DNA of 27,121 nucleotides from a virus: the IMG/VR virus record IMGVR_UViG_3300027734_000263, positions 1-27,121 of that record, one strand, 5' to 3'. Positions 10,422 to 26,905 of this stretch are shown piece after piece. Each line of letters opens with the position of its first letter. Within the stretch, counting starts at the first letter, position 1. The position numbers were made by a program, and so were the translations under genes. Under the pieces are notes generated by a model that worked only from the letters and a program-made list of their open reading frames with translations, was not told the DNA's origin and did not search any database.

Positions 10422-11618
10422 ATGACTGATAAGAAGTTACACCATTGTTCTTTCTGCGGAAACCACAAAGACCAAGTAAAAAAATTAATAGTAAGTGAAG
10501 ATGTTTCTATTTGCAGTGGATGTATCTCATTATGCACCCAACTTCTGGATGAAGAGAAAATCGAAGGGACACCGGAGATACAACCCAAATCCTTCGATGC
10601 TTATAGCATTAAGGAACATCTGGATCAGCTAGTTATCGGGCAAGACTCGGCTAAAGAGGTACTGGCAGTCGCAATCTCTAATCACTACAAGCGAATCAAT
10701 CACCCTCCCAAGAACCTTGAGATTCAGAAGGGTAACGTATTATTGATTGGTCCAACTGGATCAGGTAAGACACTACTAGCTAGATCAGTCGCAAAGTATC
10801 TTAACGTACCTTTTGTCGTAGCAGATGCTACTAGCCTTACCGAAGCAGGTTATGTAGGCGAAGACGTAGAGAGTATGATTTCGATGCTCCTTGCATTAGC
10901 AGACAATGATGTTAGCAAAGCAGAGCGTGGAATCGTGTTTATCGATGAAATTGATAAGATTGCCCGCAAGAGCGAAAGTACTAGCATTACTCGTGATGTA
11001 AGCGGTGAGGGTGTTCAGCAAGCACTGTTAAAGCTAGTAGAAGGTACCAAGTGCAGAGTAAGTGTTGCGGGGAAGCGCAAGCATCCGCAGGGAGAATCAA
11101 TCGAAGTTGATACTAAAAACATTCTATTCATCGCAGGCGGCGCATTCGTTGGACTTGATACTGTCATCAAGTCGAGGACTCAAGGAACCTCAATCGGTTT
11201 CGGTGCCGAGGTAAAGTCCAAAAGCGAAAAGCCTAATATCAATCAAGTAACACCCGATGATCTAACTCGTTTCGGAATGATTCCTGAATTCATCGGTAGA
11301 TTCACCACTACAATCACGCTACAAGAACTGACCCTAGCGCAACTGATCGAAGTCTTAACTGATATCAAGAATAGCTTTATTCAACAGTATGCTTATTTGT
11401 TTTCGATTGATGGCATCAATCTCTCGTTCACAGAACAAGCTATTGAAAAGGTTGCACAGAACTGCATAGACCTAAAGACAGGTGCCCGAGGTCTTCATAC
11501 TGAAATCGAACGTATCCTAATGCCACACATGTTCCATATCAAGAAGTATAAAGAGAACAATCTAACTGAATTGGTTATTGACGTAGAACATATCGATAAC
11601 CCGAAATCTATCTTTTAG
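10422..11618 (+). CDS. clpX: ATP-dependent Clp unfoldase ClpX
   Basis: ClpX hexamers unfold tagged proteins and feed them to ClpP. The 398-residue protein is complete: an N-terminal zinc-binding domain (C9, C12, C31, C34), Walker A GPTGSGKT (110-117), a GYVGED pore loop, Walker B IVFIDE (171-176), the RKH loop (219-221), the IGF docking tripeptide (258-260) that binds ClpP, and the sensor-2 GARGL arginine. Thus nucleotide use, substrate translocation and ClpP docking all seem intact. It is slightly shorter than bacterial ClpX, mostly in linkers. A phage clpX followed by hsp20, clpS and two clpP genes in 6 kb is striking. Confidence 0.97.
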   Translation: MTDKKLHHCSFCGNHKDQVKKLIVSEDVSICSGCISLCTQLLDEEKIEGTPEIQPKSFDAYSIKEHLDQLVIGQDSAKEVLAVAISNHYKRINHPPKNLEIQKGNVLLIGPTGSGKTLLARSVAKYLNVPFVVADATSLTEAGYVGEDVESMISMLLALADNDVSKAERGIVFIDEIDKIARKSESTSITRDVSGEGVQQALLKLVEGTKCRVSVAGKRKHPQGESIEVDTKNILFIAGGAFVGLDTVIKSRTQGTSIGFGAEVKSKSEKPNINQVTPDDLTRFGMIPEFIGRFTTTITLQELTLAQLIEVLTDIKNSFIQQYAYLFSIDGINLSFTEQAIEKVAQNCIDLKTGARGLHTEIERILMPHMFHIKKYKENNLTELVIDVEHIDNPKSIF

Positions 11619-15250: not shown

Positions 15251-15841
15251 ATGAGCCTAGTCCCAATCGTACTCGAACAAACCAGCCGCGGTGAACGCAG
15301 CTACGACATTTACTCACGCTTGCTTAGGGATCGTGTCATTTTGCTTGAAGGCGAAGTGCATGACCAGATGGCTAACTTGATTGTTGCCCAGCTTCTCTAT
15401 CTTGAATCAGAAGATTCGGATAAGGATATTTCTCTCTACATTAACAGCCCTGGTGGAAGTGTCACTGCTGGTATGGCAATCTATGACACTATGCAGTTTA
15501 TCAAGCCGGAAATCACTACGATTGTGATGGGTCAGGCCTGTTCGATGGGGTCGCTTCTTGCACAAGCAGGTGCACCCGGTAAGCGAATGATGCTTCCACA
15601 TGCTCGTCACATGATTCACCAGCCCTCAGGTGGCGCACGTGGTCAGGCAACTGACATGTTGATTCAAGTCAATGAAATCCTCGCAATGAAGAAGTCATTG
15701 ACCGAAATCTACGTTCGTCACAATTCAGTTGGCAAGACCTATGATGTGTTGGCAGCAGATATGGAACGTGATTATTTCATGTCTGCCCAAGAAGCACTTG
15801 ACTACGGTCTAATTGATAAGATCGTTGATAAGCGAGTCTAA
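15251..15841 (+). CDS. clpP: ClpP peptidase, bacterial type
   Basis: ClpP forms a 14-subunit barrel that cleaves proteins threaded in by ClpX or ClpA. The 196-residue protein is nearly colinear with bacterial ClpP: an N-terminal [20 protein letters not shown] axial-loop region, the INSPGGSV oxyanion loop, catalytic S98 in QACSMGS, H123 in RHMIHQP, and D174 in MERDYFMS. It has no long propeptide. AAGAAGGAT precedes the ATG, and a weak promoter-like pair (TTGCTT 15196, TATTGT 15219) may drive it. It looks more like a host enzyme than phage ClpP families do, suggesting acquisition from a bacterium. Confidence 0.97.
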
Positions 15842-15881: not shown

Positions 15882-16433
15882 ATGAAGACTGATACCAATA
15901 TTGATAAAATTCAAAATGTACTACTTGATAATAGCATCCACTTTTTAGTAGGTGAAATCACTAGTGAAAATATCAATGAAGCTATCAAATGGATCACCTT
16001 TGAAAATCTCACTAAAAAATCAAAGACGCTAACTCTATACATAAACAGTGAGGGCGGTGACTTATATCAAGCGTTTGCATTAATTGACGTTATGAATAAG
16101 AGTCACCGCCCTATCAAGACTATAGGGTTAGGAAGTATAATGAGTGCTGCGTTCTTGATTTTTGCTTGCGGCACTAAGGGACAGCGTTACATTGCTCCTA
16201 ACACAGGTATAATGTGTCATCAGTTTAGTGGTGTGGTAGAAAATAAGTACCATGACATCAAAGCCCAGATGGTAGAGAATGAACTATGTAATGAGCGGAT
16301 GCTTAATGTTTTGATCAGGGCTACTGGTAAATCTAAATCATTCGTTCAACAACGTCTATTACCCCCTAGCGATGTATACCTGACAGCAGATGATGCTATT
16401 TCTTATGGAATCGCGGATAAGCTGTTCGAATAG
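15882..16433 (+). CDS. Second ClpP-like peptidase, T4-like phage type
   Basis: The 183-residue protein is a ClpP/crotonase-fold serine peptidase that differs strongly from its neighbour. The triad is present: S88 in GSIMSAAF, H113 in IMCHQF, and D164 in PSDVYLT; the INSEGGD loop replaces INSPGGS. The GLGxxMSA form of the serine motif and the LLPPSDVYLTADDAI ending resemble, from memory, ClpP proteins of marine T4-like phages. It lies 40 bases after clpP. It may form mixed barrels with the first ClpP, act alone as a head-maturation type protease, or regulate host ClpP. Confidence 0.9.
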   Translation: MKTDTNIDKIQNVLLDNSIHFLVGEITSENINEAIKWITFENLTKKSKTLTLYINSEGGDLYQAFALIDVMNKSHRPIKTIGLGSIMSAAFLIFACGTKGQRYIAPNTGIMCHQFSGVVENKYHDIKAQMVENELCNERMLNVLIRATGKSKSFVQQRLLPPSDVYLTADDAISYGIADKLFE

Positions 16434-20934: not shown

Positions 20935-21417
20935 ATGCGTAAAGAACTTGATGAATTGCTGTGTGTGAAGTACCCTAAGATTTTCAGGGACCGAAACGCA
21001 CCCATGAATCAAACCTGCATGTGTTGGGGATTCGATTGTGGTGATGGATGGTTCAACATCATTGACATGCTTTGTGCTAACATTCAAGGTCACATTGACC
21101 GTGTTGAACGGCAGCGAGATTCCACTATCAAATGGAATGAAAATGTGAATGATCCTAACTTTGAATGGATGTCATTTGTTAAACGAGAAGAACGACCTGT
21201 TCCGGAACTCGTTGATCAAGTTGTTGCTGTACAGGTAAAAGAAAAGTTTGGTACGTTGCGTTTCTACTATAACGGCGGCGACGATTTCATTAATGGGTTA
21301 GAGCGTATGGCAGAGTCGATGTCGGCTGTTACTTGTGAGGAATGCGGCAACCCGGGAACTATCACCAAAGGCGGCTGGATTCGTACTCTATGTGAAACTC
21401 ATAAAAAGGAAAAATGA
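20935..21417 (+). CDS. Conserved phage/prophage protein with C-terminal zinc ribbon
   Basis: The 160-residue protein has LCVKYPKIFRDRN near the start, an MCWGFDCGDGWFNIIDMLC block, an AVQVKEKFGTLRFYYNGG block near residues 105-122, and a C-terminal TCEECGNPG...CETH zinc ribbon. This order matches, from memory, a hypothetical family frequent in phages and prophages. TAAGAGGTAATT leads to the ATG. It overlaps the following phosphoesterase by ATGA, suggesting a shared process. Confidence 0.85.
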   Translation: MRKELDELLCVKYPKIFRDRNAPMNQTCMCWGFDCGDGWFNIIDMLCANIQGHIDRVERQRDSTIKWNENVNDPNFEWMSFVKREERPVPELVDQVVAVQVKEKFGTLRFYYNGGDDFINGLERMAESMSAVTCEECGNPGTITKGGWIRTLCETHKKEK

Positions 21418-22256
21418 TGAAAATTGCATTAGCAAGTGATCTACATTTGGAATTTCAGACTATCACGCTTCCCAACACTGAGGGAGCGAAGGTCCTGATT
21501 CTATCCGGTGACATCTGTGTAGCACACTCGCTACATGATCATCCGATTGACAAGACTATTCCTGTCGATGCAATGAAGCCCGGTAGGAATGAGGGTGCTG
21601 CTATTCGGTTTCGTGAGTTCTTTCGTCATGTAAGTATGGAGTACGATCACGTAGTTTATGTGGCGGGTAACCATGAGTTCTATCATGGTCTCTTCCCTGA
21701 TGTATATGACTGGTTGCGTACTGAAATGGTAAACTACCCTAATATTCACTTTCTGAATCGTGAGAGTGTAGAGATTGAGGGCGTGACCTTTCTTGGTGGT
21801 ACGCTTTGGACAGACATGCATCGTGCTGACCCACTTACACTGCGAGTTATTGAGTCTGCGTTGAATGATTTTAGGATCATCCGAAACAGTCAGCATAACT
21901 ATCGTCGTTTCCTTCCTATGGACACGGTCCTTGATCACCGAGCAACCCTTGAGTATATCAAGCAAGTCGTTGATGCTGATCCTGCTAAGAAGTACGTTGT
22001 AGTTGGGCATCATGCCCCTACTGCACTGAGTGTTCACGAGAAGTATAAGGATGATCACTATGTGAACGGAGGCTACTACAGTGACTTGTCAGAATTCATT
22101 CTAGATCGTCCTCAGATCGCCCTCTGGACACATGGACACATGCATGATCCTTCTGACTACATGATGGGAGAGACACGCATCGTGTGCAATCCTAGGGGCT
22201 ATAAGGGGCATGACCCTCAGGCTGACCTCTTTCAATTAAAGTTTTTGGAGATTTGA
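21414..22256 (+). CDS. Calcineurin-like metallophosphoesterase
   Basis: The 280-residue enzyme keeps the full dinuclear metal motif set: D9-x-H11 in ASDLHLE, GD in LILSGDICV, GNHE in VVYVAGNHEFYH, H in VVVGHHAPT, and GHMH in LWTHGHMHD. It should hydrolyse a phosphomono- or phosphodiester; the substrate cannot be read from sequence. The family is common in phages. Start at 21414 (ATGATG) overlaps the upstream stop. It serves as reference for the degenerate copy at 12559-13260, with which it shares the same block order and the LxGxxxWT segment. Confidence 0.95.
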   Translation: MMKIALASDLHLEFQTITLPNTEGAKVLILSGDICVAHSLHDHPIDKTIPVDAMKPGRNEGAAIRFREFFRHVSMEYDHVVYVAGNHEFYHGLFPDVYDWLRTEMVNYPNIHFLNRESVEIEGVTFLGGTLWTDMHRADPLTLRVIESALNDFRIIRNSQHNYRRFLPMDTVLDHRATLEYIKQVVDADPAKKYVVVGHHAPTALSVHEKYKDDHYVNGGYYSDLSEFILDRPQIALWTHGHMHDPSDYMMGETRIVCNPRGYKGHDPQADLFQLKFLEI

Positions 22257-24923: not shown

Positions 24924-25183
24924 TGAAGTACTACATATTTGCTAGGGAATCTGACAAGTTTGATGACATTCTTAAAGATATAGCGGTAAAGCCGGTTATC
25001 AGACATAAGATTAGATTCAAGAACCATTTGATCCTTGGCTTCTCTGACGATGATGAAAAGATCATATCATACATGACTATTAAGTATGGTGATGACCTGA
25101 CCTCATTCAACCACATTGCGGCTGATCGAACTCCTATCATGAACAAAGATTATATTCCTAAAAAGAAATCGGTATCAGGTTAG
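24923..25183 (+). CDS. Hypothetical basic protein
   Basis: ATG 24923 shares TAATG with the upstream stop, so I prefer it to the frame from 24911. The 86-residue product begins with a strand (MKYYIFARESDKF), has a KPVIRHKIRFKNHLILGFSD segment and a helix ISYMTIKYGDDL, and ends with a lysine-rich tail. No family is recognised. Its end overlaps the convergent glycosyltransferase gene by 26 bases, without a visible terminator between them. Confidence 0.7.
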   Translation: MKYYIFARESDKFDDILKDIAVKPVIRHKIRFKNHLILGFSDDDEKIISYMTIKYGDDLTSFNHIAADRTPIMNKDYIPKKKSVSG

Positions 25184-26141
25184 ACTTGAATATTTCCCAG
25201 CAATGTTCCCATGTCCATTGCTTGCTATTCCTGACTACTGCATTCCTGTCTAAGGTTAAACAGTAGTCAACTGCGGTAGATAGGTCGTCGGACATAAAAC
25301 CCGTTACTCCCTGTTCAATTATATCTTTAGGTCCGGTAACCGGATATGCTGCTACAGGAGTTCCACACGCCATTGCTTCAATTATAACAATTCCAAAAGT
25401 ATCACTGCGACTAGGAAATACAAAAACTTTAGAATTTTTGTACCAGGTAGCTAGGTCTTCACCTACTTGTTTACCCGTAAAATGCACTGAGGGATATTTC
25501 TTTTTCAACTCGTCAAGATAGGGACCGTCTCCAACTAGTACCTTAAAAGGATAATCTAGTTGACAGAATGCATCCAAATTCTTTTCTTTTGACACCCTAG
25601 ACACACATAGAATATAGTCACCGATTTTGCGGTTGGGTTTGAACACGCTTCTATCTACGCCTCTTGTCCAGGAAATGATATCACCCCTGAATCCATGATC
25701 TTTGAGTTCATTAACCATCGTTTGTGTAGTAGTGAGTACACGACCGCTGTGTTTGTGAAACCATCTTAGATATGCATAGGTAATGAATTCCGGAACGTGA
25801 TATATTTTCTTTAGGAATTCAGGGAATTTAGTATGATAGCTAGTGTTGTATTTCCAGCCTTTGAAGTCTAACCAAACTCTTGCCGCTAATCCAATAGGAC
25901 CTTCTGTAGCAATGTGTATGTGGTCAGGGGTTGCGGCTTTGATTTTAGACCCAGTGTGGATCGGAAAAGACAACTTAACGTCAGGATACCCCGGTGCAGA
26001 TGCATGAGTAAAATCGCTGGGATCAATATAAACAACGTTATAACCATCCAAAGCAGCAAGCCGCTCAATATTTCTAAAAGTCGTAACAACCCCATTGATC
26101 TGTGTTCTTAGATTATCGGTTACTATTAGTATGGTTTTCAT
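25158..26141 (-). CDS. agt: GT4 glycosyltransferase, Agt-like
   Basis: Agt-type enzymes add a sugar to diacylglycerol, forming glycolipids that replace phospholipids during phosphate shortage. The 327-residue protein has the GT-B layout: an N-terminal MKTILIVTDNLRTQINGVVT acceptor domain, then DHIHIATEGPIGLAARVW and NTSYHTKFPEFLKKIY blocks typical of this subfamily, WTRGVDRSVFKP at the linker, and a C-terminal donor domain with SDTFGIVIIEAMACGTP. The start at 26141 matches the family's N-terminus; the frame is open to 26186. It overlaps the end of the upstream plcP-like gene by 29 bases. The substrate is inferred from family and neighbour. Confidence 0.85.
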   Translation of the reverse strand: MKTILIVTDNLRTQINGVVTTFRNIERLAALDGYNVVYIDPSDFTHASAPGYPDVKLSFPIHTGSKIKAATPDHIHIATEGPIGLAARVWLDFKGWKYNTSYHTKFPEFLKKIYHVPEFITYAYLRWFHKHSGRVLTTTQTMVNELKDHGFRGDIISWTRGVDRSVFKPNRKIGDYILCVSRVSKEKNLDAFCQLDYPFKVLVGDGPYLDELKKKYPSVHFTGKQVGEDLATWYKNSKVFVFPSRSDTFGIVIIEAMACGTPVAAYPVTGPKDIIEQGVTGFMSDDLSTAVDYCLTLDRNAVVRNSKQWTWEHCWEIFKSNLIPISF

Positions 26142-26892
26142 CGGTATTGATCTTTTGCCAAACGACGATTTCCCATCGCCCATCATGATGTTCTACCAGT
26201 GCGGTACATGATTCTACCCAATCACCGTCATTCATGTACACAATATCATTGACTGTCTTAATCTCTGCATTATGAATATGCCCGCAGATTACACCGTCAT
26301 ATCCTTTTCGTTTAGCGTATGCTGTAATATTTTTTTCAAATTCAAACATGAAGTCGATAGCTTTTTTAACTTTATGCTTAAGGAACTTAGACAATGACCA
26401 ATAGCCAAATCCCATTCTATGTCTGATCCAGTTGAATCTGCTGTTGAGGTCCAGCACGAAATCATATGCTCGGTCACCTAAAAAACTGAGCCAAGGAGTA
26501 AGACGAGTAATTCCATCAAACAAATCGCCATGTACTACCATGTATTTCTTGCCGTCTACGCCCAAGTGAGTTATAGTATTGCAGATTTCAACTCTACCAA
26601 AATTGGCAGCGTATGGTATCATCGGTCTTAAGAATTCATCGTGGTTTCCTGCAACATACACGACTCTAGTATTGTGTTTGCTGTGACTAAGAATACGACG
26701 AACCACATTAGTATGTGACTGCTTCCACTTCATCCGATTCTGTTGAATCTTCCATGCATCGATGATGTCACCTACAAGATACAGAGTCTCACAGGTATTA
26801 TGTTTTAGGAAATTGTTAAGCAGGTCTGCTTTGCAGTCTTTAGCGCCCAAATGGACATCTGATATGAAGATAGTTCTGTATGTGGGTTTCAT
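26113..26892 (-). CDS. plcP: PlcP-like metallophosphoesterase (LpxH superfamily)
   Basis: PlcP is a phospholipase C that splits membrane phospholipids into diacylglycerol and a phospho-head group. The 259-residue protein has the full metal site: D12-x-H14 in ISDVHLG, D42 in LVGDIIDAW, N83-H84 in AGNHDEF, H121 in VVHGDLFD, and GHIH (204-207). The middle segment WLSFLGDRAYDFVLDLN and GFGYWSLSKFLKHKVKKA is characteristic, from memory, of PlcP rather than true LpxH. The first gene of a two-gene minus-strand unit, with agt next, mirrors the bacterial phosphate-starvation operon. LpxH-like UDP-diacylglucosamine hydrolase activity is the alternative. Confidence 0.88.
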   Translation of the reverse strand: MKPTYRTIFISDVHLGAKDCKADLLNNFLKHNTCETLYLVGDIIDAWKIQQNRMKWKQSHTNVVRRILSHSKHNTRVVYVAGNHDEFLRPMIPYAANFGRVEICNTITHLGVDGKKYMVVHGDLFDGITRLTPWLSFLGDRAYDFVLDLNSRFNWIRHRMGFGYWSLSKFLKHKVKKAIDFMFEFEKNITAYAKRKGYDGVICGHIHNAEIKTVNDIVYMNDGDWVESCTALVEHHDGRWEIVVWQKINTDENHTNSNR

Positions 26893-26897
26893 GCAAT

Positions 26898-26905
26898 TAT
26901 TTATC
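26898..26905 (-). promoter_or_regulatory. T4-type late promoter motif on the minus strand
   Basis: On the minus strand this reads GATAAATA, ending five bases before the plcP-like ATG at 26892. No Shine-Dalgarno is evident in the gap, so the message may be nearly leaderless. It suggests phage-controlled, not PhoB-controlled, expression. Confidence 0.5.

Follow-up and report, generated by a model that had tools for sequence, protein, structure and literature searches.

A plcP–agt gene pair in phage DNA with a probable role in phosphorus scavenging from host membranes

Introduction

The closest described counterpart of the locus reported here is the bacterial PlcP–Agt operon, represented by PA3219–PA3218 of Pseudomonas aeruginosa and by PlcP–GTcp of SAR11 HTCC7211. 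The same two gene families are found there, arranged alike and with the genes overlapping or close together. In lakes and oceans the yield of phage can be phosphorus-limited, and the phage phosphorus genes of which we are aware concern uptake, phosphatases or nucleotides. The bacterial PlcP–Agt pathway has been proven in P. aeruginosa (PMC8528852). The glycosyltransferase of the SAR11 lipid pathway is likewise established, and the residues of GTcp that are essential by mutation have been determined in Pelagibacter (PMC8231724). Genes of phage S-PM2d are bound by the PhoB of the host, and cyanophage pstS is also under PhoB control (PMC10976474).

An earlier note on the viral DNA analysed here had read two of its genes as a phage-borne plcP–agt operon, and had suggested that it might mobilise host phosphate, prevent superinfection or prepare lysis. 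Having followed up this reading, we consider the pair to be probably a phage auxiliary metabolic operon that remodels phospholipids to glycolipids and thereby scavenges phosphorus.

Results

The window, by which we mean the whole stretch of 27,121 bases analysed, comes from an IMG/VR virus record and is probably a fragment. Both open reading frames are intact on the minus strand at the positions given for them. The first, plcP (26113–26892, 259 aa), encodes a PlcP-type calcineurin-like phosphoesterase and the second, agt (25158–26141, 327 aa), an Agt1-type GT4 glycosyltransferase. Read from its first ATG, the agt frame would span 25158–26186. Alignment with bacterial and phage relatives places the likely start at 26141 (MKTILIVTDN...), and the two genes therefore overlap by 29 nt (26113–26141, minus strand) and not by 74 nt. 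The same or a similar overlap is present in many viral relatives; the overlap suggests that translation of the two genes may be coupled. A divergent plus-strand gene starts at about 26950, upstream of plcP, and on the downstream side a small convergent plus-strand ORF ends inside agt. Other products of the window also look phage-like, one being an ATP-dependent DNA ligase (phrog_114). A 42,576-bp IMG/VR contig (L002) carries the same locus, both proteins being 100% identical. We note that the plus strand of the window also encodes a ClpX-like ATPase (10422–11618) and two ClpP-like proteases (15251–15841 and 15882–16433), both labelled head maturation protease by PHROGs and thus present in two copies in one phage fragment. 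A second calcineurin-like phosphoesterase (21414–22256, plus strand, phrog_1649) is unrelated to PlcP.

The window PlcP is 53% identical to P. aeruginosa PlcP over 237 residues, compared with 23% identity to E. coli LpxH in a partial match of 125 residues, and it matches PF00149 (E=9.4e-13). The metal ligands of PlcP had been reported as complete, and all seven (D12, H14, D42, N83, H121, H205 and H207) are indeed found in the window protein; they are retained throughout the phage homologues that span them (124 sequences). The median dN/dS of phage PlcP is 0.077, indicating purifying selection. In a maximum-likelihood tree LpxH splits off with a support of 100, and the window PlcP is located inside PlcP with the P. 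aeruginosa enzyme on the same side. Most phage PlcP, that of the window included, form one group within PlcP (support 99), and a few, among them that of phage Mosig, sit in a neighbouring mixed group.

LpxH (UDP-2,3-diacylglucosamine diphosphatase) belongs to the same metallophosphoesterase superfamily and is the nearest solved fold to PlcP. GenBank annotates phage relatives of the window PlcP as UDP-2,3-diacylglucosamine hydrolase. This name favours a reading in which neither enzyme acts on diacylglycerol lipids, the first being LpxH-like or a nucleic-acid phosphoesterase and the second a glycosyltransferase for surface polysaccharide, phage DNA or protein. We regard this as very unlikely. 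On two LpxH models the window PlcP scores 52.8 and 39.2 bits, far under the cut-offs of 134 and 190, and LpxH and PlcP are separate clades. The PlcP-type genes of 20 bacterial genomes, chosen for having PlcP, score 35–58 bits on the LpxH models, and the window PlcP falls in the same range. LpxH normally coexists with PlcP in the same bacterial genome, and 15 of these 20 also encode an LpxH above the cut-off. On the strength of the cut-offs and the tree, we rejected a role of the window phosphoesterase as LpxH or in LPS. The predicted fold is closest to LpxH–lipid X complexes, and a profile search of solved structures with PlcP returned LpxH entries alone; the structure model is moderate (pLDDT 74, with a weak cap region) and adds little. 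A nucleic-acid phosphoesterase was also rejected: a PHROG exonuclease family and the polymerase and PdeM models of NCBIfam were matched only weakly, and in the fold search LpxH structures top the ranking. The window phosphoesterase groups with PlcP, and phospholipase C activity is predicted for it. A phage-like plcP was also located on a 669-kb Methylotenera contig (L098:4977–5744), among small phage-like ORFs, and this contig is a possible host lead.

The window Agt shares 41% identity with P. aeruginosa Agt1 and scores over the cut-offs of PF13692, PF00534 and PF13439. All phage Agt form one clade (support 100), which is nested, together with P. aeruginosa Agt1, in the bacterial Agt1 clade (support 99); Agt2 enzymes of the PA0842 type form a separate clade of the tree. 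The two trees are those that the earlier note had put forward as a check, and both agree with its assignments. The blocks INGVV, HIATEGPIGLAARVW and SYHTKFPE, described there as specific to the subfamily, are all present, with cores that bacterial Agt conserve as well. The essential residues of GTcp are likewise all found in the window Agt, namely H103, R160, D247, W311 and the UDP-sugar site. Across 98 phage Agt these residues are invariant with the exception of D247, a column occupied by Glu in 61 sequences and by Asp in 37, the window having Asp. Replacing the equivalent Asp of GTcp by Glu abolishes more than 90% of activity (PMC8231724), so part of the phage Agt family may work differently, and Glu at this position may reflect a different donor or acceptor. 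The 61 of 98 sequences with Glu count, in our view, against a role of the pair in lipid remodelling for phosphorus. The median dN/dS of phage Agt is 0.158, again consistent with purifying selection. As it lies inside the Agt1 clade, the window glycosyltransferase is assigned to Agt1 and predicted to glycosylate diacylglycerol. Its place in the Agt1 clade and its full set of essential GTcp residues argue against a non-lipid substrate, as does the plcP-then-agt order shared by bacteria, which in one case is a single fused ORF. The apparent fusion, with PlcP and Agt in one continuous ORF, is found in a Burkholderiales metagenome-assembled genome (L117:4992–6869).

At least 600 viral contig stretches, from metagenomic contigs, match PlcP patterns, and 599 among the matches listed encode PlcP relatives. 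The earlier note had called for a survey of the pair and had compared its gene order with that of the bacterial operon. In the 73 Agt-anchored viral loci with upstream room plcP is present in 70 and directly upstream in 62, and plcP followed by agt is therefore the order in most Agt-bearing viral loci. The recurrence of the pair in the same order, with both proteins under purifying selection, indicates that the locus did not arise by chance.

The gene next after viral plcP is usually one for a glycosyltransferase. In many plcP loci that lack Agt, the gene directly downstream encodes an unrelated enzyme of the GT2 family, about 236 aa long. Examples with GT2 in the place of Agt are L048:5060–5770 and the loci L250–L329. 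Where there is room, plcP lies within 500 nt upstream in 68 of 73 GT2-anchored loci, and in no GT2-anchored viral locus scanned were Agt and GT2 observed together. Two further scans of plcP loci gave 34 with Agt, 34 with GT2 and 5 with neither, and 43, 13 and 12 respectively. That some phages have plcP with neither glycosyltransferase is also counted against phosphorus scavenging. In two close relatives that lack Agt (L003 and L004), a gene for a RimK-like ATP-grasp ligase (300 aa) directly follows plcP. The GT2 partner matches PF00535 and, less strongly, PF13506 (glycosyltransferase family 21), a family that includes bacterial processive lipid glycosyltransferases (PMC8231724). It is plausible that the enzyme making diacylglycerol is kept and the enzyme consuming it is exchangeable. 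The GT2 partner also weakly matches GtrB-like PHROG families, and is predicted to adopt a generic GT-A fold, closest to a mannosyltransferase and to TarP/TarS; these similarities add to the case for substrates other than lipids. In 20 plcP-bearing bacterial genomes the phage GT2 has distant relatives at most (≤34% identity).

The long contigs of the plcP set reach 367 kb. T4-type Gp23 is encoded by 9 of 22 long contigs and a terminase by 18 of 40 contigs; Gp23 is absent from the 42.6-kb contig that carries the window's locus. A cyanophage origin was rejected, psbA being found in 0 of 40 related contigs. Naming a host by way of phage PstS was abandoned as too unspecific, since 32 of 274 genomes in a single class gave a match. 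The loci of relatives often have an NrdB gene as a neighbour, which fits a link to the supply of DNA precursors. In the cultured Pelagibacter phage Mosig EXVC030M, plcP is divergent from a PstS-like gene.

Upstream of many phage plcP genes we observed a repeat with the architecture of a Pho box, TGTMAY-N5-TGTMAY, in which two half-sites are set at an 11-bp period. Among the new evidence, we regard this repeat as the strongest. In a deduplicated set of 134 phage plcP upstream regions the exact repeat occurs in 31, compared with 7 of 1,327 other genes on the same contigs (Fisher 1.7e-27). When one mismatch is allowed, the counts are 48 of 134 and 18 of 1,327 (Fisher 5e-39). Making the half-site spacing one base shorter or longer removes the enrichment. 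Five of the seven exact control matches precede pstS, and two precede one family of 215-aa genes (MRLEDLAVRLVAVEAKLA..., from L217:8984 and L074:7101 onward). This family comprises the sole non-pstS genes with an exact repeat in the first control set, and is a candidate for a new Pho-controlled phage gene. The pattern was first noticed in the data and then fixed. In held-out loci, which exclude upstream regions similar to the first set, it was found at 15 of 32 plcP genes against 2 of 308 non-pstS genes (p = 1.3e-15), and at 6 of 10 pstS genes. Among Mosig-like loci the repeat is present at 3 of 33 plcP genes and 0 of 281 controls. Thinning by PlcP identity leaves it in 22 of 80 at 90%, 10 of 40 at 85% and 3 of 14 at 80%. 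Bacterial plcP genes have the classical TGTCAY version (14 of 76 against 6 of 467, at most one mismatch). A pstS gene with the same repeat is located near plcP–agt in L194:545–3600, where the order is plcP, agt, pstS, and also in L053, L204, L207 and L218. The promoters of these phage relatives would be expected to bind PhoB. Predicted phage Pho boxes have not always bound PhoB, and are reported to be unreliable without binding tests (PMC10976474); this too we count against the proposed role.

The plcP promoter of the window itself has no Pho box (best match with 4 of 12 positions mismatched), nor has any of the 20 loci closest to the window, its identity band. We count this against phosphorus scavenging; this subgroup would need a benefit independent of phosphate starvation. 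One such benefit would be remodelling of the envelope, in which the same enzymes serve another purpose, the glycolipids altering membrane charge or receptor display so as to block superinfection or tune lysis. According to unpublished data mentioned in PMC9804370, the adsorption of phage to P. aeruginosa can be influenced by lipid remodelling. We nevertheless consider this purpose unlikely. The Pho-box-like repeats and pstS neighbours of the relatives indicate phosphate, and no receptor or lysis gene was found among the regular neighbours, NrdB being the frequent one. Of the purposes suggested earlier, phosphate mobilisation is thus strengthened by the repeats and the adjacent phage pstS; no evidence turned up in support of superinfection exclusion or preparation for lysis.

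The element GATAAATA lies 13 nt 5′ of the plcP ATG (26898–26905, minus strand) and had been taken as a sign of phage late control. NATAAATA is present at −30 to −8 in 31 of 134 phage plcP upstream regions and in 67 of 1,327 controls, an enrichment that gives late control weak support; the term itself goes beyond these data. NATAAATA also occurs at a similar distance 5′ of some other window genes, and may therefore be a phage element of general use. A promoter and terminator scan gave no signal above chance. GATAAATA is a possible phage promoter element.

Discussion

Family membership, catalytic residues, purifying selection, pairing and the Pho-box-like promoters of relatives are all observed here, and it appears that phages probably mine the host membrane for phosphorus. 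In the mechanism we propose, PlcP would cleave host phospholipids (PG, PE) to diacylglycerol and the phosphorylated head group, and Agt would glycosylate the diacylglycerol from a UDP-sugar, yielding a glycolipid. The bulk of the membrane would be kept while phosphorus is freed, and the released phosphorylated head group would feed nucleotide and DNA synthesis. For the phage, we infer the two enzyme activities, the binding of PhoB, the destination of the phosphate and the control of the window's copy. More broadly, we lean towards the view that large phages of aquatic habitats possess a modular cassette for mining phospholipid. It would consist of plcP with either of two unrelated lipid glycosyltransferases, sometimes with pstS, and be wired to the host's PhoB in many lineages, and infected cells short of phosphate would thereby turn their membranes into glycolipids to the advantage of the phage.

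If this is correct, a phage route from host membrane phospholipid to phosphorus would be a new step in virus-driven phosphorus cycling, present in hundreds of contigs and in many of them apparently induced by phosphate starvation of the host. Viral "lpxH" auxiliary genes, named from KEGG annotation, have been reported from the surface ocean and Lake Baikal (PMC10653327, PMC9611531). Some of these annotations may then be explained, as the published genes may be misnamed plcP.

Compared with the bacterial PlcP–Agt operon, the phage Agt form a clade of their own, GT2 replaces Agt in other phages, and a Pho box is missing from the copy in the window. The locus resembles the PhoB-controlled phosphorus genes of phages in that relatives have a Pho-box-like promoter, with plcP and pstS sharing the repeat on the same contigs. 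It differs from them in that the plcP module would act on membrane lipids and not on uptake or nucleotides, and in that the window copy is without the repeat. The half-site in front of phage plcP, TGTMAY, follows the proteobacterial pattern, whereas the cyanobacterial one is PyTTAAPyPy. The earlier note knew of no described phage operon of this kind, and in the open literature, preprints and most subscription journals lying outside the search, we found no paper on a phage plcP–glycosyltransferase operon. Each part has a known counterpart, in bacterial PlcP–Agt and in PhoB-controlled phage pstS; what looks new is that they are combined, that the combination is abundant, that its glycosyltransferase can be exchanged and that it is wired to Pho boxes.
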